NCBI RefSeq assembly: GCF_001660705.2
Contig: NZ_LYBV02000018.1
Coordinates: forward strand, 1 to 64,000
Reading direction: 5' to 3'
Origin: Saccharicrinis aurantiacus
GTDB taxonomy: Bacteria; Bacteroidota; Bacteroidia; Bacteroidales; Marinilabiliaceae
Length of the DNA stretch: 64,000 nucleotides
Shown: positions 19,998-41,774 of the stretch, piece by piece
How positions within the stretch are numbered: the stretch's first letter is position 1
How the letters are laid out: each line of letters starts with the position of its first letter
Translations under genes and position numbers: made by a program
The notes under the pieces: generated by a model
Database searches by the model: none
The model's input: the letters and a program-made list of their open reading frames with translations, nothing else
Told to the model about the DNA's origin: nothing

Positions 19998-20311
19998 AAG
20001 GCAGTTTGCAAGTTGCTTATAGCGTAGCGTTATTTTTAAGTTTAATATTTAAAAAATCCATCAACCACAGAAAGGATTTATCCTTTATCTTCTGCTTCTA
20101 TCCTCATACAATGATAATAGTAATATGATTTACGTTCCTGCTAAAACCACAAATATTAGTTTATATTGGTACTACCCCTCATTACATGTATAGCCTTAAA
20201 CTGATTAACAAGTCTAATAGTTATCTTGAAATAGATAGCTTTTTTTATTTAATAGAAACTACTGTGTACTGTTTAATTACTTATATTCAAGCACTAAAAA
20301 CTCGTCTAATA

Positions 20312-23300: not shown

Positions 23301-24901
23301 TAAATACATGTATTTTTGAGAATGGATTTCCTCAACAGTTAAATTTCTCATCTAATAATCCTGATACTACTTTCGTTTTTGATCTGGAAGAACATATTCC
23401 ATCTACCTTAAATGCTAGCTTTAAAGCCTACCCTTCTCAAATCTCTGCACTATTTGATGGCTTAGAGTCTATAATTAGAGAGCCGCATGGTTGTTTTGAA
23501 CAAACCTCGGCCAAAGCCTATCCCAATTTATTGGTTCTCGATTATCTTAAGAGTACAAACTCAAGCAATGTAAAGGCTCAAAATAGGGCACTAAACTTAA
23601 CTCGCAAGGCATATAAAAAGTTAGTAAACTACGAAACTTCTGAAAATGGCTTTGAGTGGTTCGGTAAAGCCCCTGCACATAAGGGTTTAACAGCTTATGC
23701 ACTTTTAGAATTTACCGATATGAAGAAGGTATATAATGGTGTTGATCCAGAACTAATAGATAGAACTGCTAATTGGTTACTAAATTTACGTGATGGAAAA
23801 GGAGGTTTCTATTCTCGCAAACACGACAGGCAGTTTTCGCGTGCAACTGAGCAAGTTCAGAATACTTACATTTTATATGCTCTATCAGAGGCCAATTACC
23901 ACCATATTAATAAAGAATTTAAGTTTGCATACAAAAATGCCTTAAAACTTAACGATACATATATATTAGCTCTAAGCCTTAATACTGCCATTAATTTGAA
24001 TAAACTTGAAGAAGCCAACATTTTGGCAGATATACTTGACAAACAGATTAGAAACCATGGTTTCGGAAAATTACCTGCTAAAGAATCTATTACACGCTCA
24101 CGTGGGCATTCGTTGCAAGTAGAAACAGCATCGCTCTATTTACTCGCGCAACTTAAACTTAATAAAACATCTGGCGTAAATTCTCAGCTTTGTATCAATT
24201 ATATTGCCCAATCGAGAAAAAATGGTGGGTTCGGCTCATCGCAAGCTACCATTATGGCATTAAAAGCGCTCTGTAGCTACGCTAAGCTTGTTGATAAAGA
24301 AACTAGAAGTAATTCATTACTTATGAAACTGAATAATAAGCTATATGAAATGGATTATTCGAGTAATACCTCGGTACCAATTGAGTTTACAAACTTACAA
24401 AGCACATTAAATATAGGGTCTAACCAATGTAAAGTATCGTTTAAGGATACCAACTATACTACACCCTACAATCTAATTGTAAACTATAGAAAAGAAACAC
24501 CTGCCAACTCAGAAAATTGCATACTGAGTTTAAAAACACGGATGAATGCTGACAAATATAATTTAGGCGACTTGGCAAGAATGACTGTGAGCTTAAAGAA
24601 TAAAAGCGATGAAGTTACTCCAATGGCTATTGCAAAAATTGGTATTCCAAGCGGTTTAAGCTTACAATCCTATCAGCTTAAAGAACTTGTAGAGAAAGAG
24701 AAAATAGATTATTACGAAGTTCGCAACAACTATTTGGTATTGTATTTTTCTAGTCTATCACTAATGCAGGAAATTAATATTCCCCTATATCTTAAAACTG
24801 AATACAAAGGAATATTTAAGGCTTCGGCTAGCTCTGCATATCTGTATTATACCAACGAACACAAACAATGGTTGCAAGGAGAACAAATTTATATTTACTA
24901 A
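20312..24901 (+). CDS. Alpha-2-macroglobulin-like protein with an inserted TonB C-terminal domain
   Basis: The ATG at 20312 gives 1529 aa and starts a signal peptide (MKIVISLIIILLSSLTSSLSQ); an earlier ATG at 20186 adds a non-signal extension. Near the N-terminus, YIKTDLPFYKPGETIWFSAWV is the MG2/A2M_N opening. An acidic linker at ~620-690 leads to a complete TonB-C domain at ~690-790 (MPEYPGGDNELRKYI ... YPRGAYKLGIQGRVYIQFVVDESGAI). The A2M core then resumes (VKFYTTDNIGGFEISAEG), followed by the thioester motif GCFEQ (Cys1061) and an alpha-alpha toroid. Such proteins trap proteases in the periplasm; a TonB-C domain could bind a partner at the outer membrane. The gene is followed after 43 bp by a small membrane-protein gene. 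Confidence 0.88.
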   Translation: MKIVISLIIILLSSLTSSLSQNSNNKDCTAIKAEEQVYIKTDLPFYKPGETIWFSAWVVDRNIANLSKTSDFLNVELIAPDGNTLKKLKVLTIGGRGKGEFMLDTRQPGGIYKIKAYTQWMKNCTSPNYFEKDLFVQNTNFTTHLLNLEFNNKGYGAGEMVTANLSLKDPYNNIVQTKDPIQYTISIAGKDILSDSCIANNGSAQITFKLPKELNTNDAVLNVRINNEGKTESISRTVPINIEQIDLSFYPEGGHWLANTNSTIAFKALDKHNKPSDIEGVILDDDGTTICDFKSFHNGMGAFDIIGNKNKRYTAIITKPTGITTSYTLPEFSDSYYALKLEPTQNTIKADIFSTKSKSTITLKGYVKNICYFKKDYSIERGNNSIIIPTSDMPAGILRLSLYEGKTGYCERLIYINNNKTTKIIISPNKQSYNPHDEVTLDIVTTDENGVGIKTDLALAVADNKTIAFANDKQGDIIANLLLKSEVNGEIEDPAFYFDDSEEKANKALNYLLLTQGWRKFIIPDGKTKYPIEKAYIKGTLYDYDARPLPNHKIWIKGKNDTITTNKNGEFIFTDIVINDFLVLETKNNQNKIISKHVYSYSKHNLPNNIDEVPITRQLSVDEESLIDRAIIADEVLNTDEIIETGIDDDLELDQNIIEIEDTEVEVDSDLEIEFDSTLEENEEDENPVFFIVEEMPEYPGGDNELRKYITENTIYPRGAYKLGIQGRVYIQFVVDESGAITQVKIARGIHPALDSEAVRVVSQMPKWKPGKQRGKPVKVSYTVPINFVLDNTKLDTDDRPHDYHLYFQLLKSGDYYESREFYSHQYGSYNIGNKRNNLKSTIYWNPQIITNDNGKAQVKFYTTDNIGGFEISAEGISSNNYIGSGITHINTQLPMSIEAKVPTFMRVNDKGELPFTITNTTNENNKTHLSILCKRYNRNDNANDYLKITTDSIIEINAHSTKTIWFKYEALKAIKHLNIVATINDVKNRFNDRVSINTCIFENGFPQQLNFSSNNPDTTFVFDLEEHIPSTLNASFKAYPSQISALFDGLESIIREPHGCFEQTSAKAYPNLLVLDYLKSTNSSNVKAQNRALNLTRKAYKKLVNYETSENGFEWFGKAPAHKGLTAYALLEFTDMKKVYNGVDPELIDRTANWLLNLRDGKGGFYSRKHDRQFSRATEQVQNTYILYALSEANYHHINKEFKFAYKNALKLNDTYILALSLNTAINLNKLEEANILADILDKQIRNHGFGKLPAKESITRSRGHSLQVETASLYLLAQLKLNKTSGVNSQLCINYIAQSRKNGGFGSSQATIMALKALCSYAKLVDKETRSNSLLMKLNNKLYEMDYSSNTSVPIEFTNLQSTLNIGSNQCKVSFKDTNYTTPYNLIVNYRKETPANSENCILSLKTRMNADKYNLGDLARMTVSLKNKSDEVTPMAIAKIGIPSGLSLQSYQLKELVEKEKIDYYEVRNNYLVLYFSSLSLMQEINIPLYLKTEYKGIFKASASSAYLYYTNEHKQWLQGEQIYIY

Positions 24902-26887: not shown

Positions 26888-28174
26888 CTATTTATCCTTC
26901 TTATAGCGCCCTTCAGGGTGATTATAAAGCGATTCCATACTTTGTTCGAAGTAAACTTCTGGTCGGTGCCATACACCAGTCTTTTTGAAGCCAGGCTCGT
27001 TACTATCTAAACTTAAATCGCAATCGAAGCGAGCCATGATCGAATAACACTTTTCAGGGGTACCTGCATTTACAAAATGGCTTAATCCCCAAGTAAAACC
27101 ACGATTACCACCTTCTTTCTCAAATAAGTTTGGTATATATGGCGCTGCTGCTGTTGGTGCAAACGAAATACAACAAGCAATATTAAAATTTGCGCCATCC
27201 TCTGAAAACTGAATAGTTTCGCGCTCATTACCATCTTTAATAACAATGGTAGCTACCCCATCCCGAAAAGGAAAATAAGTAGTTTCGTGCCCAGATTGCA
27301 TTACCGGGTTTAAAGGATGCTTTTCGAAAGGACCAAGCGGATTATCAGAGGTAACTAAACCATGACCAACTGCATATTTATCGCGCTTATCGGGCCACTT
27401 ATTATAGGCCGCCTTGTAGTAAATATGAATTTTACCATTGAAAATAATAGGATGCGGATCATGTGTTGCATTCTGATCCCATTCGCCCTCTTTACCAAAC
27501 GGAATTACGGCATCTCCCCCATGTGTCCATGGTCCATCGGGAGAATTGGCATAAGAAACTGAAACCGGACAAAGGTCGCCACGCAAACCACTTGGCTCAT
27601 CAAAGGCCTGGTAATATAAATAGTATTTTCCTTGCCACACTAAGATATCAGGCGTAGCCAACGAACGCCATCCCGATTTTGGTTTTGCAGGGCGCGTAAC
27701 CGCTGGCCCTATCTCATTCCAGGTAGTACCATCGGCACTTGTGGCGTACCAAATATCGGCCAAATCCCAATCGGTAGATGGTATTTCATCGGTGGCTTCC
27801 TTAGCTCTATCCCAGCCCACTGGGGGAACAATGGTGTGCCTTTTGGTATACCATATATAATATTTACCATCCACTAAAATAGGTCGTGACGGATCTCGAC
27901 GCGAAACAGTTCCATCACCTCCATTATAATCAAAGCCCTGAAGACGAGTATATTTAAATTGCGAAAACAGTTCGTTATCCTGTACGCGTTTTGTTTCGTA
28001 CTCAAACATCCGTTCAGATGATGCGCTTAATGGGATATTTGGTTTTTCATCAGGCATCGCAAAGGGGAATACCCCGTTCGAGACTTCCTTTTGCTCATGC
28101 TTCTGCTGTGCACAGGATGCCATTAAGCCGAGGGCTAATATTGCATACGATGCTTTACTTATTAGTTTTATCAT
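26888..28174 (-). CDS. GH117 lipoprotein, alpha-1,3-(3,6-anhydro)-L-galactosidase family
   Basis: The 428-aa protein has a lipoprotein signal (LGLMASC) and one five-bladed beta-propeller of GH117 type. Family marks are GGDGTVSRRDPSRPI (Asp94 in RRDPS, likely the catalytic base region), DEIPSTDWDLADIWYATS, the strand YYLYYQAFDEPSGLRGD, and a late SGHETTYFP with the candidate acid His. GH117 enzymes release 3,6-anhydro-L-galactose from the non-reducing end of agar-type oligosaccharides. It is the last gene of the operon. The other GH117 copies differ mainly in loops, suggesting different linkages or sulfation patterns. Specificity for the D-sugar of carrageenan cannot be excluded. Confidence 0.88.
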   Translation of the reverse strand: MIKLISKASYAILALGLMASCAQQKHEQKEVSNGVFPFAMPDEKPNIPLSASSERMFEYETKRVQDNELFSQFKYTRLQGFDYNGGDGTVSRRDPSRPILVDGKYYIWYTKRHTIVPPVGWDRAKEATDEIPSTDWDLADIWYATSADGTTWNEIGPAVTRPAKPKSGWRSLATPDILVWQGKYYLYYQAFDEPSGLRGDLCPVSVSYANSPDGPWTHGGDAVIPFGKEGEWDQNATHDPHPIIFNGKIHIYYKAAYNKWPDKRDKYAVGHGLVTSDNPLGPFEKHPLNPVMQSGHETTYFPFRDGVATIVIKDGNERETIQFSEDGANFNIACCISFAPTAAAPYIPNLFEKEGGNRGFTWGLSHFVNAGTPEKCYSIMARFDCDLSLDSNEPGFKKTGVWHRPEVYFEQSMESLYNHPEGRYKKDK

Positions 28175-28261: not shown

Positions 28262-29539
28262 CTACTTAACCATTGTAGCTGCTTTTATACTTTTCTTCTT
28301 TCCGCCTAATCCTTGCTTAAAGTATACATCGCTTTTATGAAATACATTAGATCCTTTAAAAAACTTATCTGGTTCATCCGTACTTAAATCACAATCGAAG
28401 CGTGCAATAATTGAATAACCTTTTCCTCGTTGGCCTTGATTGGTAAAATGTGAAACACCCCATTTTATACCACTTGCATTGTCTGAATTGGTAAAAGCAT
28501 CGGGTGTATATGGTCCGCCAGCAATGGGTGGTAAAGAAATAGCTGATTGTACCTTAAAGTTTACACCATCCTCGGCATACTGAACCGTTTCGCGCTCGTT
28601 TCCATCGCGGGTAACTATTGTTGCTACGCCACTTTTATAAGGGAAAAAGCAAGTTTCGTGCCCAGAGTTTAACACAGGATTGAGGGTGTTTTTTTCAAAT
28701 GGCCCAAGCGGATCTTCGGCTATTGCTAAACCTACTGCCACTGCATATTTATCTCTTTTGTCTTCCCATTTATTGTAGGTTCCTTTGTAATACAAGTATA
28801 TTTTACCATTAAATACTATTGGAAAAGGATCGTGAATTACATCCTGATCCCACTCTCCTTTGGCACCATTAGGTATTACATTGGCTTTGCCCAACTCAAA
28901 TGGTCCTTCAGGAGAATCGGACACAGATACGGATACCGGACACCAATCGCCACGCAATCCACTTGGCTCGCTAAAGGCCTGATAATACAAATAGTATTTA
29001 CCTTTCCATATTAAAATGTCGGGTGTAGCTACCGAACGCCATCCCTGAGTTGGTTTTTGGGGGCGTTTTACGGCAACTCCCTGTTCCTCCCATGAAAAAC
29101 CATCTTTACTTGTAGCATACCAGATATCGCACAAATCCCAATCGGTAGATGGTATTTCATCCGTAGCCTCGACTGCTCTGCGCGAACCAATAGGAGGCAC
29201 TATAGTGTGGCGTTTGGTATAATAGATATAATACTTCCCGTTTACGAGTATTGGTCGTGAGGGATCGCGACGAGAGATGGTACCATCTCCTCCATTATAA
29301 TCAAAGCCATCTATCTCAGAGTATTTAAACAGCGTATACAATGGGTTATCTTGTACGCGCGGCGCAGGATAATCAAACATCCTATCCATGGCTGCACTCA
29401 ATGGAATGTTGGGTTTAATTTCTGGCATTGCATGCGGAAAAACACCGGATGCTTTCTCTTCTTCCTTCTTCTCATTAGTGGTACACGAGAATCCCATTGT
29501 GGCTATTAAGCCGATGGATAATAACTTAGTCAAATTCAT
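28262..29539 (-). CDS. GH117 lipoprotein, second copy
   Basis: The 425-aa protein has a lipoprotein signal (TMGFSC) and the same propeller as its neighbours. Visible marks are GGDGTISRRDPSRPI, TDWDLCDIWYATSKDG, QAFSEPSGLRGDWCPV, and SGHETCFFPYKSG. The C-terminus (GLGGKKKSIKAATMVK) is short and basic. It lies 87 bp after the preceding gene's end and 101 bp before the next, all on the minus strand. Surface-anchored exo-acting anhydrogalactosidase is the likely role. Confidence 0.87.
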   Translation of the reverse strand: MNLTKLLSIGLIATMGFSCTTNEKKEEEKASGVFPHAMPEIKPNIPLSAAMDRMFDYPAPRVQDNPLYTLFKYSEIDGFDYNGGDGTISRRDPSRPILVNGKYYIYYTKRHTIVPPIGSRRAVEATDEIPSTDWDLCDIWYATSKDGFSWEEQGVAVKRPQKPTQGWRSVATPDILIWKGKYYLYYQAFSEPSGLRGDWCPVSVSVSDSPEGPFELGKANVIPNGAKGEWDQDVIHDPFPIVFNGKIYLYYKGTYNKWEDKRDKYAVAVGLAIAEDPLGPFEKNTLNPVLNSGHETCFFPYKSGVATIVTRDGNERETVQYAEDGVNFKVQSAISLPPIAGGPYTPDAFTNSDNASGIKWGVSHFTNQGQRGKGYSIIARFDCDLSTDEPDKFFKGSNVFHKSDVYFKQGLGGKKKSIKAATMVK

Positions 29540-29640: not shown

Positions 29641-31956
29641 TTATTTATTTATTTTTTGATTGTCTTCCTGAATTCTTTTGCGTTGCTTTTCGCTTAATCC
29701 ATATTTAAAATACTCATCCGGACTACGCAAAAAGTTATGGTGTTTCATTTCCTCATCGTGCATATCTCTGCTCAAATCGCAATCGAAACGGTACAGCTCA
29801 GAATGCCATCTTTTAGAATTCTTTCCTCTAAAATTGATAAAGTGACCAATACCCCAAGTAATTCCTCTTCCATCTTTAGAGTCAGTAAATGCATCAGGGA
29901 TGTAAGCATTTGGCCCTGTTGGCATCATTTCGGTAATGGCCATTACTTCAAAATTCACCCAATCCTCGGCATACTGAATAGTAAAATGCTCGCTACCATC
30001 GCGAATGGTTAATGATGCTACTCCTTCTTTCCAAGGGAAGAAACAAATCTCATGACCTGAATTCTGAACCGGATTCAAGGCATGCTTTTTAAATGGGCCA
30101 AGCGGATTATCAGCAATAGCTAACCCAATACCGCTCCAAACCGTTTGCGGGCGGTTAAATGCTGCCTTATAGTACACGTATATTTTGCCATCTTTTACCA
30201 ATGGCGTTGGCGCCTGAATGGCGAATTGATCCCACTCTCCTTTGGCTCCGGTAGGAATCACCACATCGTTCACATGCGTCCACGGCCCATTGATGTTATC
30301 GGCGTAAGCCACACCAACCGGACAATAATCGCCACGCACACCGCTTGGCTCTGTAAATGCCTGATAGTAGATATAGTACTTGCCTTTAAACTTTAAGATA
30401 TCAGGTGTTGCCACGGCTCTCCATCCCGGAATTGGATACTCAGGACGCGTAACGGCTACACCTTGCTCTTCCCAATGGAAACCATCTTTGCTGGTGGCAT
30501 ACCAAACCTCAGCCAAATCCCAATCGGTTGTAGGGATAGTATCATTCCAAGTTCCATCGGTCTTCATCACAGAATAATCTTGTGAAAAGCGACCTACCGG
30601 AGCAATTGGAGTCTCTCTCTTGGTATACCACACGTAATATTTGCCATTTTCAAAAAGCACCTTCGAAGGGTCGCGACGTGTTATGGTTGCATCCCCATCG
30701 TTATAATCAAAGCCCGTAAGCTTGGTATATTTAAACTGCGTGTAAAGTTCGTTTTCAGCATTTACATGCGATGGATACTGATTAAAACTGCGATCTAAAG
30801 CTGAACTCAATTCGTAATCTTTTGAATACTCAGTAACCTGATATGGAAAAGCCTCAGTTTTTGGCTTCGGCGTTTTTAAAGGAATCACCAAGGAATACGA
30901 AATTTCACTCCCTTTTGGCAAGATGGCAATAATCAAAGCCTTAGGCATACCATTCTCCATATAGAATTTTGGCATATCTGCTGTTCTTTCCGTTTTGGTT
31001 ACTGTGCCATCCGTCCATTTAATTTCACCTGCTTTAATTACCAAAAAGTTCTTTGCAGGCTTCCAATCAAAGCCCATATCACTGCCTTCAAATAACATGG
31101 TAGATCCATCGGGGTAATCGCTCCAAACGCCTCGCGAGTCTTTAGCCAAGCAATAATAATTACCGTTATAAATCCACTCTACATGATCATCAATGGCAAA
31201 TGAAGCTTTGGGTTTCTCAATAAAAGGCTCACCCGTATCAGTAAATGGTCCGAGAGGTGAACGAGATGTTGCGGTTACATGAACCACTTTACCATTTTTA
31301 AACTTTGGGTGCGGCTCAACATATTTATAGGCCATTAAAAACACACCATCGTTACGGCGTGTTACTGTTGGCGTTGAAGTCATCATTCTATCGCCTGTAA
31401 CATCAATCAAAGGCTTATCGAAACGTTTCCACTCACCGTTTAAATCATCGGCCACAGCCAAACCAATACGCTGATTGTTGCGATTTATCCACCACTCTTG
31501 GTCATTCTTAATTGAAGGCATTCTGTCATCAGGAGTTTTATCCCAATAACCACTTCCTCGGTTACCCATATGGTATAGGTAATATTTGCCTTTATACTCT
31601 ATCACATGAGGATTATGGGTACAATCACCATCCCAATATTGATTGCCTCTTGGTGGCAAAACTAAATTTTTGAACTTGTATGGTCCAGTAAGATGATCAG
31701 AAACCGCATGTGCAATTTCGGAATGTGTAACCCAACCATGGTGGCCTCTACTTTTTAACCACCTTGAATATATGGCATGGTATTTACCATCCTTTCCTTT
31801 TAAAATGTTGGTTCCCCACACATTGTAATCCTCTTCCTGAATAATATTTGCTTTATCAAACTTTTCAGGAAGTAATTCTGCAAAATTAAAATCTTCTTGT
31901 GCATGAACACTGATGACTACGATAATGCATAATAATGTAACTACTATTTGTTTCAT
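29641..31956 (-). CDS. Bimodular protein: GH43-like propeller fused to GH117
   Basis: The 771-aa protein has a Sec signal peptide (MKQIVVTLLCIIVVISVHAQ) and no lipobox, unlike the other three. Residues ~30-370 form a first five-bladed propeller (VWGTNILKGKDGKYHAIYSRW, CTHNPHVIEYKGKYYLYHMGN) of the GH43/GH117-like type whose family I cannot name. Residues ~385-755 form a full GH117 module (DGDATITRRDPSKV, TTDWDLAEVWYATSKDG, SGHEICFFP). A single polypeptide with two propellers suggests sequential attack on neighbouring linkages, or a binding-only first module. It is in the middle of the operon. Confidence 0.85.
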   Translation of the reverse strand: MKQIVVTLLCIIVVISVHAQEDFNFAELLPEKFDKANIIQEEDYNVWGTNILKGKDGKYHAIYSRWLKSRGHHGWVTHSEIAHAVSDHLTGPYKFKNLVLPPRGNQYWDGDCTHNPHVIEYKGKYYLYHMGNRGSGYWDKTPDDRMPSIKNDQEWWINRNNQRIGLAVADDLNGEWKRFDKPLIDVTGDRMMTSTPTVTRRNDGVFLMAYKYVEPHPKFKNGKVVHVTATSRSPLGPFTDTGEPFIEKPKASFAIDDHVEWIYNGNYYCLAKDSRGVWSDYPDGSTMLFEGSDMGFDWKPAKNFLVIKAGEIKWTDGTVTKTERTADMPKFYMENGMPKALIIAILPKGSEISYSLVIPLKTPKPKTEAFPYQVTEYSKDYELSSALDRSFNQYPSHVNAENELYTQFKYTKLTGFDYNDGDATITRRDPSKVLFENGKYYVWYTKRETPIAPVGRFSQDYSVMKTDGTWNDTIPTTDWDLAEVWYATSKDGFHWEEQGVAVTRPEYPIPGWRAVATPDILKFKGKYYIYYQAFTEPSGVRGDYCPVGVAYADNINGPWTHVNDVVIPTGAKGEWDQFAIQAPTPLVKDGKIYVYYKAAFNRPQTVWSGIGLAIADNPLGPFKKHALNPVQNSGHEICFFPWKEGVASLTIRDGSEHFTIQYAEDWVNFEVMAITEMMPTGPNAYIPDAFTDSKDGRGITWGIGHFINFRGKNSKRWHSELYRFDCDLSRDMHDEEMKHHNFLRSPDEYFKYGLSEKQRKRIQEDNQKINK

Positions 31957-31992: not shown

Positions 31993-33285
31993 CTATTGCT
32001 GCGTTAATTGCTTTGCAGCTTCTTCTCGTTTCTTTCTTAAACCACCCAAACCTTGTTTAAAATAAACTTCAGGACGGTGCCAAACTCCGGTTGATTTCAT
32101 CCATTTTTCATCTACATCTAAACTTAAATCACAGTCGACACGGGCAATGATAGAGTGTTTTCTATCGCGCGATGTTGCTGCATTAATAAAGTGACAGACA
32201 CCCCAGGTTACACCTCGGCCATACTCAGTATTTGTAAATGCATCTGGCGTATAAAATCCGCAAGCAGTTGGCGTTAACTCAACGGTTGCTGCAATCTCAA
32301 AATTTACACCATCGGCGGCGTATTGTATGGTTTGTGCTTCGTTGCCATCCTTAATTGCAATGGCAGCAATACCCTCTTTAAAGGGAAAATAAGTAGTCTC
32401 GTGTCCTGAGTTTAGTACAGGGTTTAGTGGGTGCTTCTCAAAAGGTCCGAATGGGTTATCAGCTATTACCAGACCGTGGGCAACTGCATATTTATCTCTC
32501 TTATCGGGCCATTTATTATAGGCTGCTTTGTAGTAAAGGTAGATCTTACCATCACGTACAATAAGATGCGGGTCTTGTGTCTGATCCTGATCCCACTCTC
32601 CTTTTTTACCTCTTGGTACTAACTCTTTCCCTGTGTGTGTCCAGGGGCCATCTGGTGAATCAGCATAGGCCATTGATATAGGGCACCAATCGCCGCGTGT
32701 TCCGCTTGGTTCGTTAAATGCCTGAAAATATAGGTAGTACTTTCCTTCCCAAATTAAAATGTCAGGCGTAGCCACAGAACGCCAACCTAAAGCAGGTTTC
32801 TTTGGTCGAGCCACAGCAACGCCTTGTTCTTCCCACTTAAAACCATCTTGGCTAGTAGCATACCATAAATCGCATAAATCCCAATCGGTAGATGGAATTT
32901 CGTCGGTAGCCTGATCTGCTTCTCCCCAGCCAAGAGGTGGCACTTTTGTATGGCGTTTGGTATACCATATATAGTATTTACCATTAATTAAAACAGGTCG
33001 CGATGGATCACGACGCGTGATGGTTCCATCTCCGCCATTGTAATCAAAACCTTCTAAACGTGTGTATTTAAATTGCGAAAACAATTCATTATCCTGTACG
33101 CGTGGTGCCGGATAATCAAACATACGCTCTGCCGCTGCACTTAGCGCGAAATCAGGTTTTGACTCAGGCATTGCGTGGGGAAATACCTTGTTTTCTTTGA
33201 TAACTATCTCTTTATTTTCACTCGTTGTACACGATATCCCTAATAAGGTGATAACACCAAGTATTAATAACTTTGTAGTTTTCAT
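31993..33285 (-). CDS. GH117 lipoprotein, third single-domain copy
   Basis: The 430-aa protein has a lipoprotein signal (LLGISC) and a GH117 propeller with GGDGTITRRDPSRPV, TDWDLCDLWYATSQDG, and SGHETTYFPFKEG. The C-terminus (GGLRKKREEAAKQLTQQ) is charged. It is closest in appearance to the copy at 26888. It is 66 bp downstream of the GH3 gene and 36 bp upstream of the fusion gene, which supports one transcript. Confidence 0.88.
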   Translation of the reverse strand: MKTTKLLILGVITLLGISCTTSENKEIVIKENKVFPHAMPESKPDFALSAAAERMFDYPAPRVQDNELFSQFKYTRLEGFDYNGGDGTITRRDPSRPVLINGKYYIWYTKRHTKVPPLGWGEADQATDEIPSTDWDLCDLWYATSQDGFKWEEQGVAVARPKKPALGWRSVATPDILIWEGKYYLYFQAFNEPSGTRGDWCPISMAYADSPDGPWTHTGKELVPRGKKGEWDQDQTQDPHLIVRDGKIYLYYKAAYNKWPDKRDKYAVAHGLVIADNPFGPFEKHPLNPVLNSGHETTYFPFKEGIAAIAIKDGNEAQTIQYAADGVNFEIAATVELTPTACGFYTPDAFTNTEYGRGVTWGVCHFINAATSRDRKHSIIARVDCDLSLDVDEKWMKSTGVWHRPEVYFKQGLGGLRKKREEAAKQLTQQ

Positions 33286-33351: not shown

Positions 33352-35556
33352 TTATCTCAAAATAATTGTACTCTCCTTTGCAAAGCTTGCTCCTAAGCGC
33401 TTACTTAATTCGCCTGGAGAAGCATTACCCAAAACTACTTTATACTCGCCCTTGTGCCAAACTCTTTCTCCTTCCTTGTTTACAACCTTAAGATCATCGG
33501 CTTTAACCGTAAAATTTATAGTCTGCTTCTCTCCCTTTTTTAGAGATACTCGTTCAAAGGCTTTTAAGCTTTTTAGTGGAATACCACCTGAAGAATTTAC
33601 TGGGTTTATATACAATTGAACCACATCGCCCATATCAAAATCTCCTGCATTACTTACTTCAAGCTGAATGTTTAAGTCCTTGCCTTTTTTAAGTTTGCTT
33701 GCCTCAATAATTAAATCGCTGAAAGTTGTTTTAGAGTAAGTTAATCCGTAACCAAAGGGATACATAGGCTCCTTAGTCATATATTTATAGGTACGCCCTT
33801 GCATAGAGTACTGATCGTATGGTGGTAATTGTGCTACGTTTTTAGGGAAAGTAATTGGTAGTTTACCCGATGGAGATACCTTTCCGAAAAGGATATCAGC
33901 TACTGCATTTCCGCCTTGCTCGCCAGGATACCACATTTGAAGAATGGCATCGCAATGCTCTTCAATTCCCTCTAAGGAAACAGGACCTCCACTTGCAATT
34001 ACCAATACCAATGGCTTATCGCCTTTCTTTTCTATAATCTGCTTCACGTAGTTTATCTGATTTTCTGGTAAGGTCAGAAATTCTTTATCCCCATGCCATG
34101 TAGAAGCAATGGCATCAACAGATTCGCCTTCGAGATAACGCGTTGTTCCCACTACACAGATTGTAACGTCAGCCTCTTTGGCAACCATAGGCCCCCAATT
34201 TTTAGGGTTTGGATTAGTTTGAAATGGTAATGCACCAGTACGGTAATTTAAAGAAGTTCCCTTAGAAACGGCGCCTGCAACTCCTTCCATAACCGATACC
34301 AAACCTGTACTTACGCCATAATAACTACCCATTAATACATCGTTAGAATTGGCAAATGGTCCTGTTATATATGGGATCTTAATTTTGGGTGAAAGCGGTA
34401 GAGTGTTATCCTTATTCTTTAATAATACAATTGATTTCTGAGCCACTTCTCTGGCTAAATCAATATGTGCCTGACTATGTATCTCATCAGGACTAATATT
34501 ATTGTATGGATGATTTTTGTCGTTATCAAATAATCCCAATCGGAAACGCGTTTTGAATAACTGCGATACTCTTTCGTGGACTAACTCTTCGCTCACCATG
34601 CCGTTTGCTACAGCATCTTTTAGGCTTTTTTGGTAGGTTCCACCGCAATTTAAATCAACGCCAGCTTTTAAAGCCAATGCCGCGGCATCCATTGGAGTAT
34701 CGGCATAGCCTTGTTTACCCGCTGCACCTGCAATGGCACCACAATCGGAAGTTACATAACCATCAAAACCCCATTCTTCGCGTAAGGTTTCTTTTACTAA
34801 AAATTCGCTGGTACACGATGGCTTTCCATAAACCATATTATAAGCCGTCATTACACCTTCTACCTTAGCATCTTTCACTAAAGCCTCAAAAGCAGGGAAG
34901 TAAGTTTCATATAAATCTTGTTTTGGCGCTTGCACATCAAACTCTAGTTTGCCGTGCTCAGGTCCCGAGTGCATTATAAAATGCTTGGCACAGGCTGCCG
35001 TTTTCAATATCTTCGGATCTTCACCTTGTAAACCTTTAACGAAGGCAACACCAATTTGCGACATCAACAATGGATCTTCACCATAACACTCTTGTCCACG
35101 ACCATAACGAGGATCTCTGAAAAGATTTACCGTTGGCGACCAAAATGTTAAACCTGCATATTTGCTATGGTTACCCATTTCTTGTGCAATTGTAAACTTA
35201 GCTCTGGCCTCTGTGGAAATAGCATCTGCCATTTTTTGAATTAAAGCAGGATCAAATGTAGCACCCATACCAATTGCCTGTGGAAAAATAGTTGCCTCTC
35301 CGTTACGCGCTACACCATGAAGCGCTTCACTCCACCAATGGTAATCAGGCACGTTTAAACGAGGAATGGCTTTGGAAGCACTCCCCATTTGACTAATTTT
35401 CTCTTCTAAAGTCATCTGGGATACTAGTATCTCTACACGCTCTTCAAGAGGCAAGTTTGTGTCATAGTATGATTGATTGATTTCTTGCGATAACATTGGT
35501 ACTGACAATACCAAAGTTATAAATGCTAGTAGTAATTTTTTATTTTTTCTCAACAT
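33352..35556 (-). CDS. GH3 family beta-glycosidase
   Basis: The 734-aa protein has a signal peptide (LLLAFITLVLSVPMLSQ) and three parts: the N-terminal TIM barrel, the alpha/beta sandwich, and a C-terminal fibronectin III-like domain (VSNAGDFDMGDVVQLYINP). The candidate nucleophile is the Asp in YVTSDCGAI. Members of this group are annotated as beta-glucosidases or xylosidases. In this operon a beta-galactosidase acting on the oligosaccharides left by GH16 and GH117 is more plausible (inference). It is 9 bp downstream of the sulfatase gene end. Confidence 0.9.
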   Translation of the reverse strand: MLRKNKKLLLAFITLVLSVPMLSQEINQSYYDTNLPLEERVEILVSQMTLEEKISQMGSASKAIPRLNVPDYHWWSEALHGVARNGEATIFPQAIGMGATFDPALIQKMADAISTEARAKFTIAQEMGNHSKYAGLTFWSPTVNLFRDPRYGRGQECYGEDPLLMSQIGVAFVKGLQGEDPKILKTAACAKHFIMHSGPEHGKLEFDVQAPKQDLYETYFPAFEALVKDAKVEGVMTAYNMVYGKPSCTSEFLVKETLREEWGFDGYVTSDCGAIAGAAGKQGYADTPMDAAALALKAGVDLNCGGTYQKSLKDAVANGMVSEELVHERVSQLFKTRFRLGLFDNDKNHPYNNISPDEIHSQAHIDLAREVAQKSIVLLKNKDNTLPLSPKIKIPYITGPFANSNDVLMGSYYGVSTGLVSVMEGVAGAVSKGTSLNYRTGALPFQTNPNPKNWGPMVAKEADVTICVVGTTRYLEGESVDAIASTWHGDKEFLTLPENQINYVKQIIEKKGDKPLVLVIASGGPVSLEGIEEHCDAILQMWYPGEQGGNAVADILFGKVSPSGKLPITFPKNVAQLPPYDQYSMQGRTYKYMTKEPMYPFGYGLTYSKTTFSDLIIEASKLKKGKDLNIQLEVSNAGDFDMGDVVQLYINPVNSSGGIPLKSLKAFERVSLKKGEKQTINFTVKADDLKVVNKEGERVWHKGEYKVVLGNASPGELSKRLGASFAKESTIILR

Positions 35557-35565
35557 GATTATGTT

Positions 35566-37347
35566 TTATAAATTGTTGCTGCCTAGATATTTTATGTAAG
35601 TATAGTATACGCCATAGTTCTGTTTCCCTTCAATGAAATCATTAACTAAAAGCGTTTTTCCTTTTTCAAGATCCACTGTAAAAGTTACGGCCTCATCCTT
35701 TTCTGTTATTGCTTTTTCAAGGATTTTATTAGCGACTCTGATTCTTACTTTTTCAGGATGAATGGTTTGGTAGGTATACATCCCTTTGGGATTTTCTGAT
35801 GGAATACCCCACACTGGCCCTGAGCATTCTTTGGGCCAACGGCAACATTCTATCTGATACTTACCGTCGCGTTCCACTTTAATGGCGTGGGTGTTGTTCT
35901 TATTCCTTTTACCAGCGCATACTTGTTCTGCTTTCCAAATTCCACCGTCTTCGCCAATGGCGTGCTGTATGCTTAGGGTAACTTCCTCTTGTGCAGGGTA
36001 GCCTATTAAGTTGCAAGTAAACTCATTGTACTCGGTGTTTTCTTTTGCTTTTGCTAAGAATTCCTGATTTGCATTCAGCATTTGCATCACCAATTCTCTT
36101 TGCTCATTGGCAACATTATTCTTTTGCTTTCTATCGTCTTTTATATTGTACAACTGCTTTCCGTTTAGCAAACGCCAATCATCCTGCATAATGCAAGTTT
36201 GCTCAATATCCATTGGCGGGCGCCAATCTTGACGGTGGTGTACATATACATTTCTTGGCTGTAGATTTTCACTCTCCTTACGTAACAGAGGTGAGAAATC
36301 AAGACCATCTAATTCCATAGTCTTAGGAACCTTCAGCTTACACAATCCTGCTAAAGTAGGAATCAAATCAACATGAGCGGTTAGTTCACGGATATCTTTA
36401 CCGCCTTTTATTTTGCCATCTTTCCAACGAATAAAAAAGGGGACACGATGACCGCCATCGAGCTTACTGCCTTTTTTACCACTAAAGCCCATGTTGTAAC
36501 CAATCTTTCCATCTTTACTGACTCCATTTCCGGAACCGTTGTCTGTGGTGAAAATCAGGATGGTATTATCTGCCAAATCCATTTCCTTAAGAAACTCCTC
36601 AAGCTTGCCGAAATTTTCATCTATGTTGGTAATCATTCCGTAAAACTCAGCGCTGTATATGTTTTTCCCTACTTCTGATCGGTAAGGTGCTGCATATTTC
36701 TCATCCACAATCAATGGACTATGGGGTGCATTGGTAGGCAAGTAAATAAAGAAAGGCTTGTTCTTATTCTCCTTTATAAACTTGATAGTTTCGTTAAACC
36801 AAACATCGGTACAATAACCCTCGAACTGTTGCGGCTTATTGTTTACGTAGTAGGTATCATCAAAATAGCTATTGCCCCAATAATCAGAAAGCTCTCCTAC
36901 TCCACCTGCTTTGTGAAATACGGCATGATCGAATCCGCAATCAGTAGCACGCACCGGGTAATTATCGCCCAAATGCCATTTACCAAACATAGCGGTTGTG
37001 TAGCCGTTTTGCTTAAACATATCAGCCATGGTTGGTGCGCCATCAAATAAAGCATCTCGACCTTTATAGGTAGCCCAAACCCCATTATTTATAGGGTAAC
37101 GCCCCGTCATAATTGCGCCACGCGTTGGCGCACAAAGCGGACTCACATGAAAGTCGGTCATTCGAACCGATTGCTTGTAAAAAGCATCGAGATTTGGTGT
37201 TTGTATATAGGCATTTCCATGACAGCCAATGTCTCCTATTCCCTGATCATCGGTAAGAATGAGTATCACATTGGGCTTATCTCCCTTTTGAGAAAAAGTA
37301 GAACCAAAAAACCCAAGGAAAATCATTAGATATAAGACCCTTTTCAT
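35566..37347 (-). CDS. S1-family (formylglycine) sulfatase
   Basis: I use the ATG at 37347 (593 aa), which starts a signal peptide (MKRVLYLMIFLGFFGSTFS) and lies 4 bp after the upstream gene; an earlier start would overlap it. The C-X-P-X-R motif is CAPTRGAIMTGR, with Cys72 to be oxidised to formylglycine. ILTDDQG gives the calcium-binding aspartates and TDNGSGNG is the late metal motif. The C-terminal ~120 residues are an extra beta-sandwich. Its place between GH16 and GH3 suggests desulfation of a sulfated galactan such as porphyran or carrageenan. No maturase (anSME) gene is in the window. Confidence 0.9.
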   Translation of the reverse strand: MKRVLYLMIFLGFFGSTFSQKGDKPNVILILTDDQGIGDIGCHGNAYIQTPNLDAFYKQSVRMTDFHVSPLCAPTRGAIMTGRYPINNGVWATYKGRDALFDGAPTMADMFKQNGYTTAMFGKWHLGDNYPVRATDCGFDHAVFHKAGGVGELSDYWGNSYFDDTYYVNNKPQQFEGYCTDVWFNETIKFIKENKNKPFFIYLPTNAPHSPLIVDEKYAAPYRSEVGKNIYSAEFYGMITNIDENFGKLEEFLKEMDLADNTILIFTTDNGSGNGVSKDGKIGYNMGFSGKKGSKLDGGHRVPFFIRWKDGKIKGGKDIRELTAHVDLIPTLAGLCKLKVPKTMELDGLDFSPLLRKESENLQPRNVYVHHRQDWRPPMDIEQTCIMQDDWRLLNGKQLYNIKDDRKQKNNVANEQRELVMQMLNANQEFLAKAKENTEYNEFTCNLIGYPAQEEVTLSIQHAIGEDGGIWKAEQVCAGKRNKNNTHAIKVERDGKYQIECCRWPKECSGPVWGIPSENPKGMYTYQTIHPEKVRIRVANKILEKAITEKDEAVTFTVDLEKGKTLLVNDFIEGKQNYGVYYTYIKYLGSNNL

Positions 37348-37351
37348 AGTA

Positions 37352-38599
37352 TTATTTCTTTTGATAATAGCGTACATAATCCACCTTCATGCTAGTTCCG
37401 TCAATGGCATCAGTCACTGGGCCTGACCATTTAATGATGGCCAAACTTAACCATATGGGTGATTCGCTAAAACAGAAATCGTTTTTCTCTCTGCGTACCT
37501 CTTGCCCATCGAAATAAAAAACTATGTTTTCTTCGTCCCACAATAAGCCATAAGTATGAAACTCTTCTCCAAAATTGTAATCCTCAGATACATCTAACAC
37601 AGAAATATCGTTCCATTTTCCATTATAGAAATATTGAACCTTATAATCAGAAAGCAGGTTGTGCCAATTCTTATGCTTATCTCTCCATCCATTTAAAAAT
37701 TGAATACAACCAATGGTGATTTCGTTATCCCATTCAAACTCAATCCACTTGTTTCCTTTTTCTTGTGTGCTCCAGCTTGTATTCCATTTACCATCAATCA
37801 AATTCTTTTCTGAATTATTGTTTTTGTACGAACCACTTGAGCTAATTTTCACATCCTTGGCTGTGGCCAGATTCATTAAACCCGCAATATCAGTATCTGC
37901 TGTAGGCGACATTACATCAGGATAATTTCCGTTGTTGATGCCGTAAACCCTGAACTCACCAATATTAAAACGTGCGTTATTATTTGATTGTAATCGTACT
38001 TTTTGCGCTTTCACCGGAATTTCTAATTGAATGGAATATCCAGGTTTAGCACCAAATGGGAAAGCTTTATGATATGAATAATGCTTTTTCTTACCATTTT
38101 CATCATAAGTAAAATCGCTCCATTGATGGATGTTGGTATTCATTTCGTTAGGATAGTGCCCTTCGTTAATATCTATTTCAAAACGCTTACCTTCTTTCGG
38201 GTCAGCACCTCTAGTCATTAACCAAAACGAGTTATTGGTAGCCTCAACTGCTGCATACTTATATCTGCACTCGAAGTATCCGTACTTGAATCGCTTTTTA
38301 GTCCATATACTACCTGAAGTCCACTCCTGACCTCCTTTATTTTCTTTTCTATTTTCTAAATGCAGCAAACCATCCTTTACTACGGCATTCTCGCGCCAGC
38401 GACTGCACAGAATATGATGATTCGATCCGTTTTGCGAATCCCAACTATCATCTAATTTACTATCGGGATAATTAAACTCATCGTTCCACGATAGGTACCA
38501 ATTTTTGGTGGTATCAATTTCGGCGGGTAGTTGAGCATATATTAATGTAAACGATGTGCTTAAAAATAGCGCAATAACTAAAGAAAATGCCTTTTGCAT
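37352..38599 (-). CDS. GH16 endo-galactanase with a nested F5/8C (CBM32-like) domain
   Basis: The 415-aa protein has a signal peptide ending in IYAQ. The GH16 fold begins LSWNDEF and has the beta-bulge active site EIDINE (Glu141, Asp143, Glu146), the type shared by agarases, porphyranases and kappa-carrageenases. After NTNIHQW (~158) the catalytic domain stops. About 165 residues (~175-340) of a discoidin-like domain follow (GEFRVYG, NLIDGKWNTSW, KWIEFEW, YKVQYFYNGKW). The GH16 domain resumes with EEFHTYGLLWDEENIVFYFDG to the end. It is thus an insertion, not a C-terminal addition. There is no sorting domain. Confidence 0.86.
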   Translation of the reverse strand: MQKAFSLVIALFLSTSFTLIYAQLPAEIDTTKNWYLSWNDEFNYPDSKLDDSWDSQNGSNHHILCSRWRENAVVKDGLLHLENRKENKGGQEWTSGSIWTKKRFKYGYFECRYKYAAVEATNNSFWLMTRGADPKEGKRFEIDINEGHYPNEMNTNIHQWSDFTYDENGKKKHYSYHKAFPFGAKPGYSIQLEIPVKAQKVRLQSNNNARFNIGEFRVYGINNGNYPDVMSPTADTDIAGLMNLATAKDVKISSSGSYKNNNSEKNLIDGKWNTSWSTQEKGNKWIEFEWDNEITIGCIQFLNGWRDKHKNWHNLLSDYKVQYFYNGKWNDISVLDVSEDYNFGEEFHTYGLLWDEENIVFYFDGQEVRREKNDFCFSESPIWLSLAIIKWSGPVTDAIDGTSMKVDYVRYYQKK

Positions 38600-38616
38600 A
38601 ATTATAGATTTATTTT

Positions 38617-40143
38617 CTAGTTCTTAATGAATGTTCCTGACTTTGATCCGTGCTGTGATTCAATTAAATAGCAATACATACCCTGCGGCAGACTTGCAAT
38701 ATTGATGGTTGATTCATTTACTTGATCGTGATGAATTAACCTATTGCCCGTTGCATCAAAAATTGAAAGCGAATCATTAGGTGATATTCCTTTAAAGCTA
38801 ATTTGATTACTGGCAGGATTTGGAAACACCTCCACTTTATTGCCTGCGGTGGTCCCTACACTTGTATTTTCGTTATATTGGTAATAACGCACATAATCCA
38901 CTTTCATACTGGTACCATCAATGGCATCGGTAACAGCTCCTGCTAAGCCATCGGATAATAAAGCCAAGCTTAAATATATTTTGGTTTCGGCAGTTACAAA
39001 ATCGTGCGGAAAGGTTCTGATTAATTCACCATCAAAATAGTATTTAATTACATCCTCTGTCCATAACATCCCTACGGTATGAAACTCCTCTGAAAAATCT
39101 GCACCATAAGCAATGTTAAAGTCGGCAATTTCTACCCACTCGTGTCCGTTATGATATTCTATTTTATAATTGTCAATCAAGTTTTTCCATGTAGATCCGC
39201 TTAACCAACCGTTGGTAAACTGAATACATCCAACTTCTTTCGATTCTGAAAAAGAAATCTCTAACCACTTTTCACCCTCTTTTTGTGTAATCCAGCTTGC
39301 CGCAGAACCCAAATTGACGCCATCGGCTACATTTTCGGGACTAGTGTTTCTACCATCAATAACATAATTTCCACTGGCAGAAAAAGTAGTTCCTGTGGCT
39401 CTTGAATGATTTACCAAACCATCTACTTCGTTATCTGCACCATTAGCAGTGGCATCTTTCGGATAACCATTTGCATTGGGTGCATATACTCTGAACTCGC
39501 CAATATGAAAATGAGAACCATGATTTGATGAAAACCTGATTTTATTGGTGTTTATTGGCGTGCTAAGTTTGTGCGTATAGGCAACTTCCTTTTCAATGCC
39601 GCCCATCTCGAAGTATTCTGGCCATATATCATGACTTCCATCTTCATGCTTATCTGTCCAATTATGAATATTGGTATTTACTTTATTCGGATAATGTCCT
39701 TCATTAGGATCTAATTCAACCGCCTTCTCTCCTTCAGGAATATCGTAGCCAGTCCACATCCAAAACGAATTATTAGTACCCGTTGCGCCTGCATATTTAT
39801 ACTTGCACTCGTAATAACCATAATGAAACTTCTCCTTTGTCCAGATACTAGCTGCAGTCCATTCCTGTCCACCACGGTTTTCTTTTTTAGCCTGAAGCTC
39901 TAAAATTCCATTAGCCACAACAGCATTCTCTCGCCATCGACTACAAATAACCATTCCTCCCGATGGTCCATTTTGTGAAATCCAATTATTATCGAGCTGG
40001 CTGTCTTCATAATCAAACTCATCGTTCCAAGATAGGTACCAACCATTATCGAGATCAATTTCAGAGGGTAGTTGAGCAAAGGAATTTAACGAAAGCCCCA
40101 AAGTGAAAAATAGGAGTATGTGAGCGTGTGTGATTTTTTTCAT
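38617..40143 (-). CDS. GH16 endo-galactanase with nested F5/8C domain and T9SS sorting domain
   Basis: The 508-aa protein is collinear with the next gene. It has a signal peptide (LGLSLNSFAQ), an active site ELDPNE (Glu143, Asp145, Glu148), an inserted discoidin-like domain at ~180-349 (GEFRVYAPN, ENVADGVN, KWLEISF), then the GH16 remainder from EEFHTVGMLW. The last ~75 residues (EVFPNPASNQISFKGI) are a type A Por sorting domain, so this copy is exported to the surface or medium while its paralogue is not. It is the first gene of the eight-gene operon and has a good promoter just upstream. Confidence 0.87.
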   Translation of the reverse strand: MKKITHAHILLFFTLGLSLNSFAQLPSEIDLDNGWYLSWNDEFDYEDSQLDNNWISQNGPSGGMVICSRWRENAVVANGILELQAKKENRGGQEWTAASIWTKEKFHYGYYECKYKYAGATGTNNSFWMWTGYDIPEGEKAVELDPNEGHYPNKVNTNIHNWTDKHEDGSHDIWPEYFEMGGIEKEVAYTHKLSTPINTNKIRFSSNHGSHFHIGEFRVYAPNANGYPKDATANGADNEVDGLVNHSRATGTTFSASGNYVIDGRNTSPENVADGVNLGSAASWITQKEGEKWLEISFSESKEVGCIQFTNGWLSGSTWKNLIDNYKIEYHNGHEWVEIADFNIAYGADFSEEFHTVGMLWTEDVIKYYFDGELIRTFPHDFVTAETKIYLSLALLSDGLAGAVTDAIDGTSMKVDYVRYYQYNENTSVGTTAGNKVEVFPNPASNQISFKGISPNDSLSIFDATGNRLIHHDQVNESTINIASLPQGMYCYLIESQHGSKSGTFIKN

Positions 40144-40301: not shown

Positions 40302-41774
40302 ATGCTCTATTGTAATATATTAAAGAAAATACCCCTCATCGTACTAATCATTTATCCCCTGTGGAATTTAAAGGCAAATTCAAATGAGGATACGCAAGGC
40401 AATAGCTCTAATTCTATCCTTAATATTATTGAATTGGCCAATGATGATTTGTTAACCGGACGTTTCAATAGCTCCTTTGAACGACTTAGTAATATATTGC
40501 CCGAAGCTATACAGACGAAGGATACTGTGGCTCAAATTTTAATTTATCGCAAGTTTGGCGTTTTGTATGGTAAGTTCGGACAAAACAAGCTTTCGCTTGA
40601 GCACATGAAGAAAGGCTTAACTTTAGCTAAAAAGCAGAAGAATACAAAGCTCACCATTTCTTGTTTACACGCCTTAGCATCGCAGTATTCTGAGATTGGT
40701 GAATACCATACATCTTTGCAATATCTCGACTCGTGTTTGTTGCGTAGCACTAAGCAATTTATTCCTCATTATATAAAATCGCTGTATGCCCGTAATTTCT
40801 TAAGAATGGGTGAATATGGGAAGGCTACCGAATACTTTAATGATATTTTACCCGAATTAAAATATACCAATTACAATCATCAGGTGGCTATTATTAATAA
40901 TGTAGCTGAGTTAAAATTAGCCATCAATCAAACGGATAGCGCTCAGTATTACTTTGAAAAAGCTTTAGATATAGTAAATAAACAGCAAATTCACCCTATG
41001 ATTAAACCCTCGTTGTTAAACAACCTGGCACAGTTGTATTATAAAAAGGGGAACAAAAATAAGGCCTACCAATACATGAGTGAAGCTAACACTTGTTCTG
41101 ATAGTATTTTTAATATACTTGGCGAAAACAACAAAGAACTGTTTAAACTAAAAAGTAAATACAGCGACGACATACTTAAGAAGGAACAAACCATAAAGGA
41201 ACAAAACCTACATATTGAAGCTATTAACAAAGCGAGTTTCCGCTTAAAACTGTTGATTGCCATTTTATTGGTTCTTGCAATAATTGCTTTTTATACGGTA
41301 AAAATGCGATTTAAAATGCGCAGTATGGCTCAAACACAAGAGCATACTAAAAAGAAGAATGAAGCTGTGCTAGAAACAAAAAATAAAGAATTGGCCGTTA
41401 ATGCCTTACAACTGATAGAAAAAGAACATACCATAGAGGAGTTACTAGACTTTGTAAAAGAAAATGATAAAGATAAACACAAAAGCCTTGCGCATAAATA
41501 CGAGCAAAACAGCAAAAAATTATGGAACGATTTTCATGATAGGTTTACGCAAATAAACAATCAGTTTTACGAGCGTTTGCTAGAGATTGCTCCGGGCCTA
41601 ACCCCTACTGAGCTTAAACATTGTGCGCTTATTAAACTTAACTTTGATAGTAAAGAGATGGCTCAGATTTTGGGTATATCGCAGAATAGTGTGCACATGA
41701 GCCGATCGAGAATACGTAAAAAGCTGAATTTAAATAGAGAGGATAGTTTGAGCAATTATATTGCGGGGATTTAG
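40302..41774 (+). CDS. TPR sensor with membrane span and LuxR-type HTH
   Basis: The 490-aa protein has a signal/anchor helix at the N-terminus, tetratricopeptide repeats over ~30-290, a transmembrane helix at ~312-332 (LLIAILLVLAIIAFYTV), a coiled coil at ~340-400, and a C-terminal helix-turn-helix of LuxR/sigma-4 kind (ELKHCALIKLNFDSKEMAQILGIS). The TPR part is expected in the periplasm and the HTH in the cytoplasm. Proteins of this form are frequent regulators in Bacteroidota. Its divergent position makes it the likely regulator of the galactan operon. It lacks the kinase and receiver domains of hybrid two-component regulators and the usual SusR form. Confidence 0.82.
   Translation: MLYCNILKKIPLIVLIIYPLWNLKANSNEDTQGNSSNSILNIIELANDDLLTGRFNSSFERLSNILPEAIQTKDTVAQILIYRKFGVLYGKFGQNKLSLEHMKKGLTLAKKQKNTKLTISCLHALASQYSEIGEYHTSLQYLDSCLLRSTKQFIPHYIKSLYARNFLRMGEYGKATEYFNDILPELKYTNYNHQVAIINNVAELKLAINQTDSAQYYFEKALDIVNKQQIHPMIKPSLLNNLAQLYYKKGNKNKAYQYMSEANTCSDSIFNILGENNKELFKLKSKYSDDILKKEQTIKEQNLHIEAINKASFRLKLLIAILLVLAIIAFYTVKMRFKMRSMAQTQEHTKKKNEAVLETKNKELAVNALQLIEKEHTIEELLDFVKENDKDKHKSLAHKYEQNSKKLWNDFHDRFTQINNQFYERLLEIAPGLTPTELKHCALIKLNFDSKEMAQILGISQNSVHMSRSRIRKKLNLNREDSLSNYIAGI

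Follow-up and report, generated by a model that had tools for sequence, protein, structure and literature searches.

Two adjacent GH16 genes with a nested domain

The DNA studied here is a stretch of 64,000 nucleotides from Saccharicrinis aurantiacus (assembly GCF_001660705.2, contig NZ_LYBV02000018.1, positions 1–64,000 of the forward strand), hereafter the window. On its reverse strand lie two adjacent genes for glycoside hydrolases of family 16 (GH16), P1 and P2, in each of which a domain of the discoidin (F5/8C) type is nested inside the catalytic domain. P1, identified from the list of open reading frames (ORFs), Pfam matches and an AlphaFold model, has 415 residues (37352..38599) and the catalytic motif EIDINE at residues 141–146 (38162..38179); P2 has 508 residues (38617..40143) and the motif ELDPNE at residues 143–148 (39700..39717), both motifs having been read from the sequence and placed by alignment. 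The two are paralogues with 49% identity in a pairwise alignment. P2 ends in a C-terminal sorting domain of the type IX secretion system (residues 439–502, 38638..38829; PF18962, 38.9 bits; TIGR04183, 39.9 bits), while the N-terminus of P1 resembles a signal peptide. From this start in P1 and this tail in P2, both enzymes are probably secreted.

In both proteins the GH16 profile PF00722 is split into two stretches (62 and 55.5 bits; cut-off 22). Between them, P1 matches PF00754 (F5_F8_type_C) at residues 252–334, with 29.8 bits against a cut-off of 28.2. P2 has a sub-threshold match to PF22633, a relative of F5/8C (21.8 against 27.8 bits), and PF00754 is unlisted for it, so that the identity of its insert rests on alignment to P1 and on the predicted model. 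With an insert profile of which both proteins are rows, the nested domain extends over some 160 residues: 183–342 in P1 (37574..38053; profile and alignment) and 187–349 in P2 (39097..39585; E 2.9e-68, P2 itself being a row of the profile). The first-pass annotation had described two GH16 paralogues with a discoidin-like domain of about 165 residues inside the catalytic domain, and in this the coordinates, the split PF00722 matches, the PF00754 match in P1 and the models agree. It had also placed the end of the first GH16 part shortly after the active site, which does not hold; this part continues for about 36 residues more, and the insert lies directly before the FHT strand.

The insert is a constant feature of a wider family. 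A genome scan counted 302 relatives and yielded 79 loci. Of these, 71 were aligned together with P1 and P2, giving 73 rows (those longer than 480 residues cut to 480); L016, L041, L081, L082, L084, L086, L087 and L089 were left out as short, broken or merged. The ExDxxE motif (E141, D143 and E146 in P1 numbering) is kept in all 73 sequences, and in all 73 the distance between the flanking NIH and EEFHT columns is 174–198 residues. Control loci were 20 of the 59 listed matches to other GH16s in the class, with any ORF of a locus considered. In 15 of these, ExDx(x)E and FHxY are at their closest 32–46 residues apart, the motif not being found in the other five; in a member of the family, L011, it is 200 residues.

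AlphaFold models of the whole proteins were built on 73 aligned sequences for P1 and 46 for P2. The mean predicted local distance difference test score (pLDDT) is 92.7 for P1 and 89.1 for P2, and the predicted template modelling score (pTM) 0.79 and 0.74; the insert elements follow a similar order in both. Structural comparison of P1 with solved GH16 enzymes (VIA-align) gives Z-scores up to 26.7 (root-mean-square deviation 2.4, 223 residues aligned, span 23–415), and that of P2 up to 27.2 (2.1, 208 residues, span 36–423), so that in both models the fold is matched on both sides of the insert. The best 50 of 1417 Foldseek matches to P1 are all of GH16 type by description, led by Bacple_01703 (8EP4). 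The predicted catalytic fold is thus undisturbed by the insert, and by analogy with the family P1 and P2 would be retaining endo-hydrolases. Structure prediction and Pfam search, both proposed at first pass as checks, therefore speak for a nested domain and not for an ordinary loop extension.

Circular permutation of the discoidin domain

By profile comparison the insert is an F5/8C domain in kind, circularly permuted so that its C-terminal strands come first and its N-terminal half after. In P1, residues 183–224 (37928..38053) correspond approximately to the C-terminal strands of the canonical domain, and residues 243–342 (37574..37873; Pfam and profile alignment) to its N-terminal half; between them, residues 225–242 (37874..37927) form a putative linker between what were once the C-terminus and the N-terminus, placed by a rotation scan. 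The discoidin kinship noticed at first pass therefore stands, while the canonical strand order does not, the halves being swapped. The kinship is also seen in a solved chain of 149 residues, 4a42, described as an alpha-N-acetylglucosaminidase family protein and presumably a CBM32; it matches the family profile at positions 244–343 (E 5.7e-6).

Exchanging the two halves improves the match to the canonical domain. In native order the P1 insert scores 33.0 bits against PF00754 and the match ends at profile position 82 of 127; with the halves swapped it scores 41.9 bits and reaches position 114. Four other inserts rise from 37.1 to 50.4, 26.8 to 37.2, 33.3 to 43.3 and 19.7 to 30.3 bits, giving a gain of 8.9–13.3 bits in all five inserts tested. 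When the moved part was shuffled, the same five inserts (P1 first) scored 29.6, 38.2, 27.6, 31.9 and 20.2 bits, and when it was reversed, 30.9, 43.4, 31.4, 35.0 and 22.2 bits.

The same holds at the level of the family. The insert profile was aligned by hhalign with a 154-column profile built from 29 canonical domains, taken from genomes within the window's taxonomic family. The native order scores 58.8 over columns 1–96, and the swapped order 80.7 over columns 1–144; the maximum is 64.2 among 20 column-shuffled controls and 61.3 when 24 stretches of GH16 core were substituted for the moved part. Among 12 rotations the optimum, 81.5, is found with the cut after residue 230 and covers all of columns 1–154 (E 2.4e-13); it is broad, cuts after residues 219–250 giving 79.7–81.5. 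Taken alone, the first part of the insert (183–224) aligns to columns 108–144 of the canonical domain (E 1.4e-4), with a score of 24.4 against a maximum of 15.1 in 100 column shuffles. This alignment rules out that the first part is a hairpin unrelated to discoidin.

Single sequences carry the signal less uniformly. Each of the 73 inserts was scored against a local profile of the 29 canonical domains and compared with 100 shuffles. The swapped order scores above the native in 66 of 73 and above all 100 shuffles in 35; in 55, at most five shuffles reach it. Two sequences from Opitutales, L085 and L088, sit on a very long branch (1.78); their insert has the same length, and the permuted order is not evident in this test.

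Outside this GH16 family no further permuted domain was found in two sets of genomes. Among the 71 genomes of the window's taxonomic family, members of the GH16 family score at least 168.8 bits with the insert profile and matches elsewhere at most 37.5; among 395 genomes of the class, the window's own two genes are found and the next match has 30.2 bits. Nine of the 18 weaker rows were inspected. Eight start at column 32 or later, without most of the first part. The remaining one, L152, is a GH29-like protein in which the match spans the junction of two tandem domains of F5/8C type; these names were read from its sequence and the profile match, and it serves here as a model of a possible precursor. 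The combination of permutation and nesting explains why standard domain scans give a truncated or sub-threshold F5/8C match for such an insert.

Family history and gene neighbours

The insert-bearing family spans six phyla. The labelled tips of the tree belong to Bacteroidota (39), Verrucomicrobiota (12), Lentisphaerota (10), Planctomycetota (5), Pseudomonadota (4) and Armatimonadota (1), P1 and P2 being unlabelled. At first pass the presence of the insert in both copies had been taken to show that the architecture is old and functional. This argument is weak, because homologues such as P1 and P2 inherit the insert; the age of the architecture rests instead on the wider family, all 73 aligned sequences of which carry it. 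Core and insert distances are correlated (Mantel r 0.75, reached in none of 999 permutations); the two have a common history.

P1 groups within Flavobacteriaceae (support 100/96) and P2 with Labilibacter (100/100), and they are therefore old paralogues. The position of P1 in the tree suggests a flavobacterium as its donor. In L007, a genome from the same genus as the window, a protein is 73% identical to P1, so that such a transfer, if any, was not necessarily recent; three of the loci L006–L009 are equal to L053, L021 and L061, and L007 was not added to the tree. The family is present in five of the 71 genomes of the taxonomic family. The GH16 family profile finds matches in 54 of the 395 genomes sampled from the class, with scores of 652.5 bits for P1, 578.4 for P2 and at best 73.8 outside the window genome, where the listed matches are confined to the N-terminal part of the profile. 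P1 and P2 thus belong to a family set apart from other GH16s of the class.

P2 and P1 stand at the head of a run of eight genes on the same strand. They are followed by a sulfatase (35566..37377), whose nearest solved relatives in a comparison with the PDB are carrageenan sulfatases, a GH3 enzyme (33352..35556) and four GH117-type genes. As called, the sulfatase ORF shares 26 bases with the end of P1 (37352–37377); this overlap may be due to annotation only, because an ATG ten codons in lies past the P1 stop. The GH117-type genes occupy 31993..33285, 29641..31956, 28262..29539 and 26888..28174, the products of the first and third being 64% and 63% identical to that of the last, which is related to solved anhydro-alpha-L-galactosidases (3p2n, 1.6e-53; 4u6b, 1.5e-214). 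The product of the 29641 gene is of GH117 type from about residue 366 (4ak5, 3.2e-52; 4u6d, 4.2e-144). These solved chains are classed in GH117, 4u6b and 4u6d presumably being Zg3615 and Zg3597. Zga_4663, Zga_3615 and Zga_3597 are named as GH117 in the part of PMC6950322 consulted. The GH117 part of the 29641 gene product lies behind a second domain, formed by its first 360 or so residues (30877–31956), which is weakly similar to GH117/GH43 propeller structures (best 5.7e-5) and for which Pfam gives no match at an E-value of 1.

Upstream of P2 a divergent gene on the forward strand (40302..41774) encodes a putative regulator with TPR and LuxR-type parts, as read from its sequence. Further away, 20186–24901 encodes an alpha-2-macroglobulin-like protein of 1571 residues that carries, about halfway along, a TonB C-terminal domain (757–832, 72.6 bits), an odd combination.

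Proposed function and known systems

A GH16 architecture with a nested discoidin-type domain is real, conserved and apparently undescribed. On balance, we favour the reading that P1 and P2 represent a discrete GH16 family in which the nested, permuted domain extends the cleft and the enzyme cuts agar-type galactan internally. Nested in the jelly-roll, in the loop that immediately precedes FHxY, is a beta-sandwich of discoidin type (F5/8C, CBM32-like) in circularly permuted order. Most binding modules of carbohydrate enzymes hang on a linker; held by two strands, this one would instead be a fixed extension of the cleft which helps to seat the chain, and not a swinging module. P1 and P2 would make endo-cuts in an agar-type, perhaps sulfated, red-algal galactan, and the GH117s, the sulfatase and further exo-enzymes would degrade the products.

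The permutation would open the domain at the loop between the sixth and seventh canonical strands, at what we take to be the ligand-loop end of the discoidin fold. With its new ends there, the domain would have its ligand-loop end near the GH16 cleft; this orientation is the least certain step of the proposal. A place near the cleft for the domain as a whole is plausible by analogy. In AgaB (GH16_16) the loop His215–Phe222 supplies Arg219 to subsite -2 (PMC6827312, in the part consulted), and the insert occupies the place of this loop, as matched by spacing and without superposition. The part in orienting the substrate or recognising sulfate that was suggested at first pass is conjectural. As to origin, two canonical domains in tandem may have been trimmed to the C-terminal half of one and the N-terminal half of the next, which would yield the permuted order in one step; the match of the permuted profile to the tandem junction in L152 supports this route. 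More tentatively, and with less confidence than in the reading as a whole, the ligand end may face the cleft so as to form one continuous substrate channel, the domain serving as a fixed reader of galactan substitution, with a single origin by tandem trimming before its spread between phyla.

Several observations weigh against the favoured reading, and they touch on the placement and role of the domain, on the substrate and on the permutation. For placement, pTM values of 0.74–0.79 leave the orientation of the nested domain relative to GH16 open, and which end of the discoidin fold would face the cleft is predicted from its general topology. For its role, the insert is less conserved than the core, with a mean identity of 0.37 against 0.58. 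This would suit a nested permuted domain that binds no sugar and acts as a structural, stabilising or protein-contact module, for example as a dimer interface or for partner docking. The most conserved insert residues, R202, W329, D269, W276 and E215 (P1 numbering; R202 and W329 invariant in all 73 sequences), also coincide with what we assume to be structural positions of canonical discoidin domains. Against such a role speaks the presence of the insert at nearly fixed length in every aligned sequence, as does the fact that sugar binding is common for discoidin domains of secreted carbohydrate enzymes. A non-binding module is an alternative to be taken seriously, if an unlikely one.

The substrate is approached through the neighbouring genes, counted with tblastn (E 1e-10) at the 79 family loci and at 20 loci around other GH16s. 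GH117 proper lies within about 8 kb at 33 of the 79 family loci (31 of the 61 of at least 15 kb), the GH117-like second domain at 33 (27 of 61) and one or the other at 48 (41 of 61), against none of the 20 controls in each case; at an E-value of 1e-3, GH117 queries match 48 family loci. For 33 of 79 against none of 20, Fisher's test gives p 1.2e-4, a guide only since the loci are related. GH3 is found at eight of the 20 control loci, so that many of these may be glucan loci. Because of the GH117 counts, an agar-type red-algal galactan is the likely substrate of many family members, and the names of relatives include Aquimarina agarivorans, Marinimicrobium agarilyticum and Agaribacter.

These two points tell against a different substrate (a beta-glucan, a carrageenan or a polysaccharide of non-marine origin, for instance), but such a substrate has evidence in its favour too. 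Among solved structures the best matches by sequence are SCLam (6xof, a beta-1,3(4)-glucanase by its description) and a kappa-carrageenase (5ocr), and within the window the sulfatase points to carrageenan while GH117 points to agar. At E 1e-10, GH117 proper was not found at 46 of the 79 loci, two of which (L043 and L052) come from bins titled pond, and 31 gave no match to it or to the GH117-like domain, in both cases in part through short contigs. Among the 80 nearest neighbours of the 20 such loci of at least 15 kb, GH29 occurs six times, GH2-type enzymes up to five times (one model) and GH106 twice, in counts drawn from 25 of the 88 matched families listed; part of the family may accordingly have another substrate. 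Relatives with neither kind of neighbour include L034, L043, L046, L067, L073, L076 and L078. As an account in place of the agar-type galactan, we consider another substrate rather improbable.

For the permutation, more than five of 100 shuffles score as high as the swapped order in 18 of the 73 inserts, and exactly five do so in P2; in seven inserts the swapped order does not exceed the native. If the GH16 fold simply contained an F5/8C domain in canonical order, these seven would be accounted for, as would the Pfam result for the native proteins, in which the sole match runs forward over the N-terminal two thirds of the domain. Yet the native match of P1 stops at position 82 of 127 and the remaining C-terminal strands lie upstream, whereas the swapped order covers nearly the whole domain and exceeds the controls. 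The swap, shuffle and rotation tests at family level reject a non-permuted insertion, which we regard as very improbable. Least credible is that the middle segment is unrelated to discoidin and merely elaborates a GH16 loop: P2 alone exceeds no F5/8C model cut-off, but P1 lies above that of PF00754, the rotated profile spans the whole canonical domain and 4a42 is matched, so that the profile matches to F5/8C reject a simple loop extension.

Among known systems, the GH16 subfamilies that act on marine galactans (GH16_11 to _17; BpGH16C, 8EP4; kappa-carrageenase, 5OCR; AgaB, 4ATF) have the jelly-roll and the ExDxxE motif in common with P1 and P2. The family profile matches their solved members weakly (5ocr, 3.4e-22; 8ep4, 1.2e-14; 9ijc, 1.1e-8), GH16_13 and GH16_14 having been compared through solved representatives only. 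Laminarinase-type GH16s (6XOF, 4CRQ; Z 25.8 and 26.6) are without the insert, and 6xof is the best solved sequence match at 1.5e-23. No solved chain does better than this against the family profile, and together with the class sample, where the score falls from 578.4 bits for P2 to 73.8 for the next GH16, it marks the distance to other GH16s in a comparison made apart from the CAZy subfamily HMMs. In the main text of PMC6827312, on GH16 subfamilies, as far as consulted, the words insertion, inserted and discoidin are absent and such an insert is not described. The same source, in the part consulted, gives GH16_8 as 'linked to CBM32', that is, GH16 with a galactose-binding module; its passage leaves nesting and permutation unmentioned, whereas P1 and P2 have both. 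Possible counterparts of P1 and P2 are Zlam_2677, a 'new putative GH16 subfamily' in the consulted part of PMC6950322, and Zobellia PorC and PorD in that of PMC5698469. No description of a permuted discoidin domain nested in GH16 was found in the open-licence literature as far as consulted, and one may exist elsewhere.

The whole of a canonical F5/8C or CBM32 domain (PF00754; 4A42) aligns to the insert after rotation. Canonical domains are attached terminally and keep the canonical order, whereas the insert of P1 and P2 is nested in the enzyme domain and permuted. The literature consulted on circular permutation, discoidin domains and glycoside hydrolases together is engineering work. In the engineered, circularly permuted GH16 1AJO the GH16 fold itself is permuted by design, while in P1 and P2 the inserted domain is permuted by nature. 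The man-made lichenase–xylanase insertion GluXyn-1 reportedly demonstrates that the GH16 fold tolerates insertion. A module both nested and circularly permuted, in relatives from six phyla, is a natural case of two such domain surgeries at once, and a ready system for asking whether a fixed binding domain alters the choice of cutting site of an endo-galactanase.

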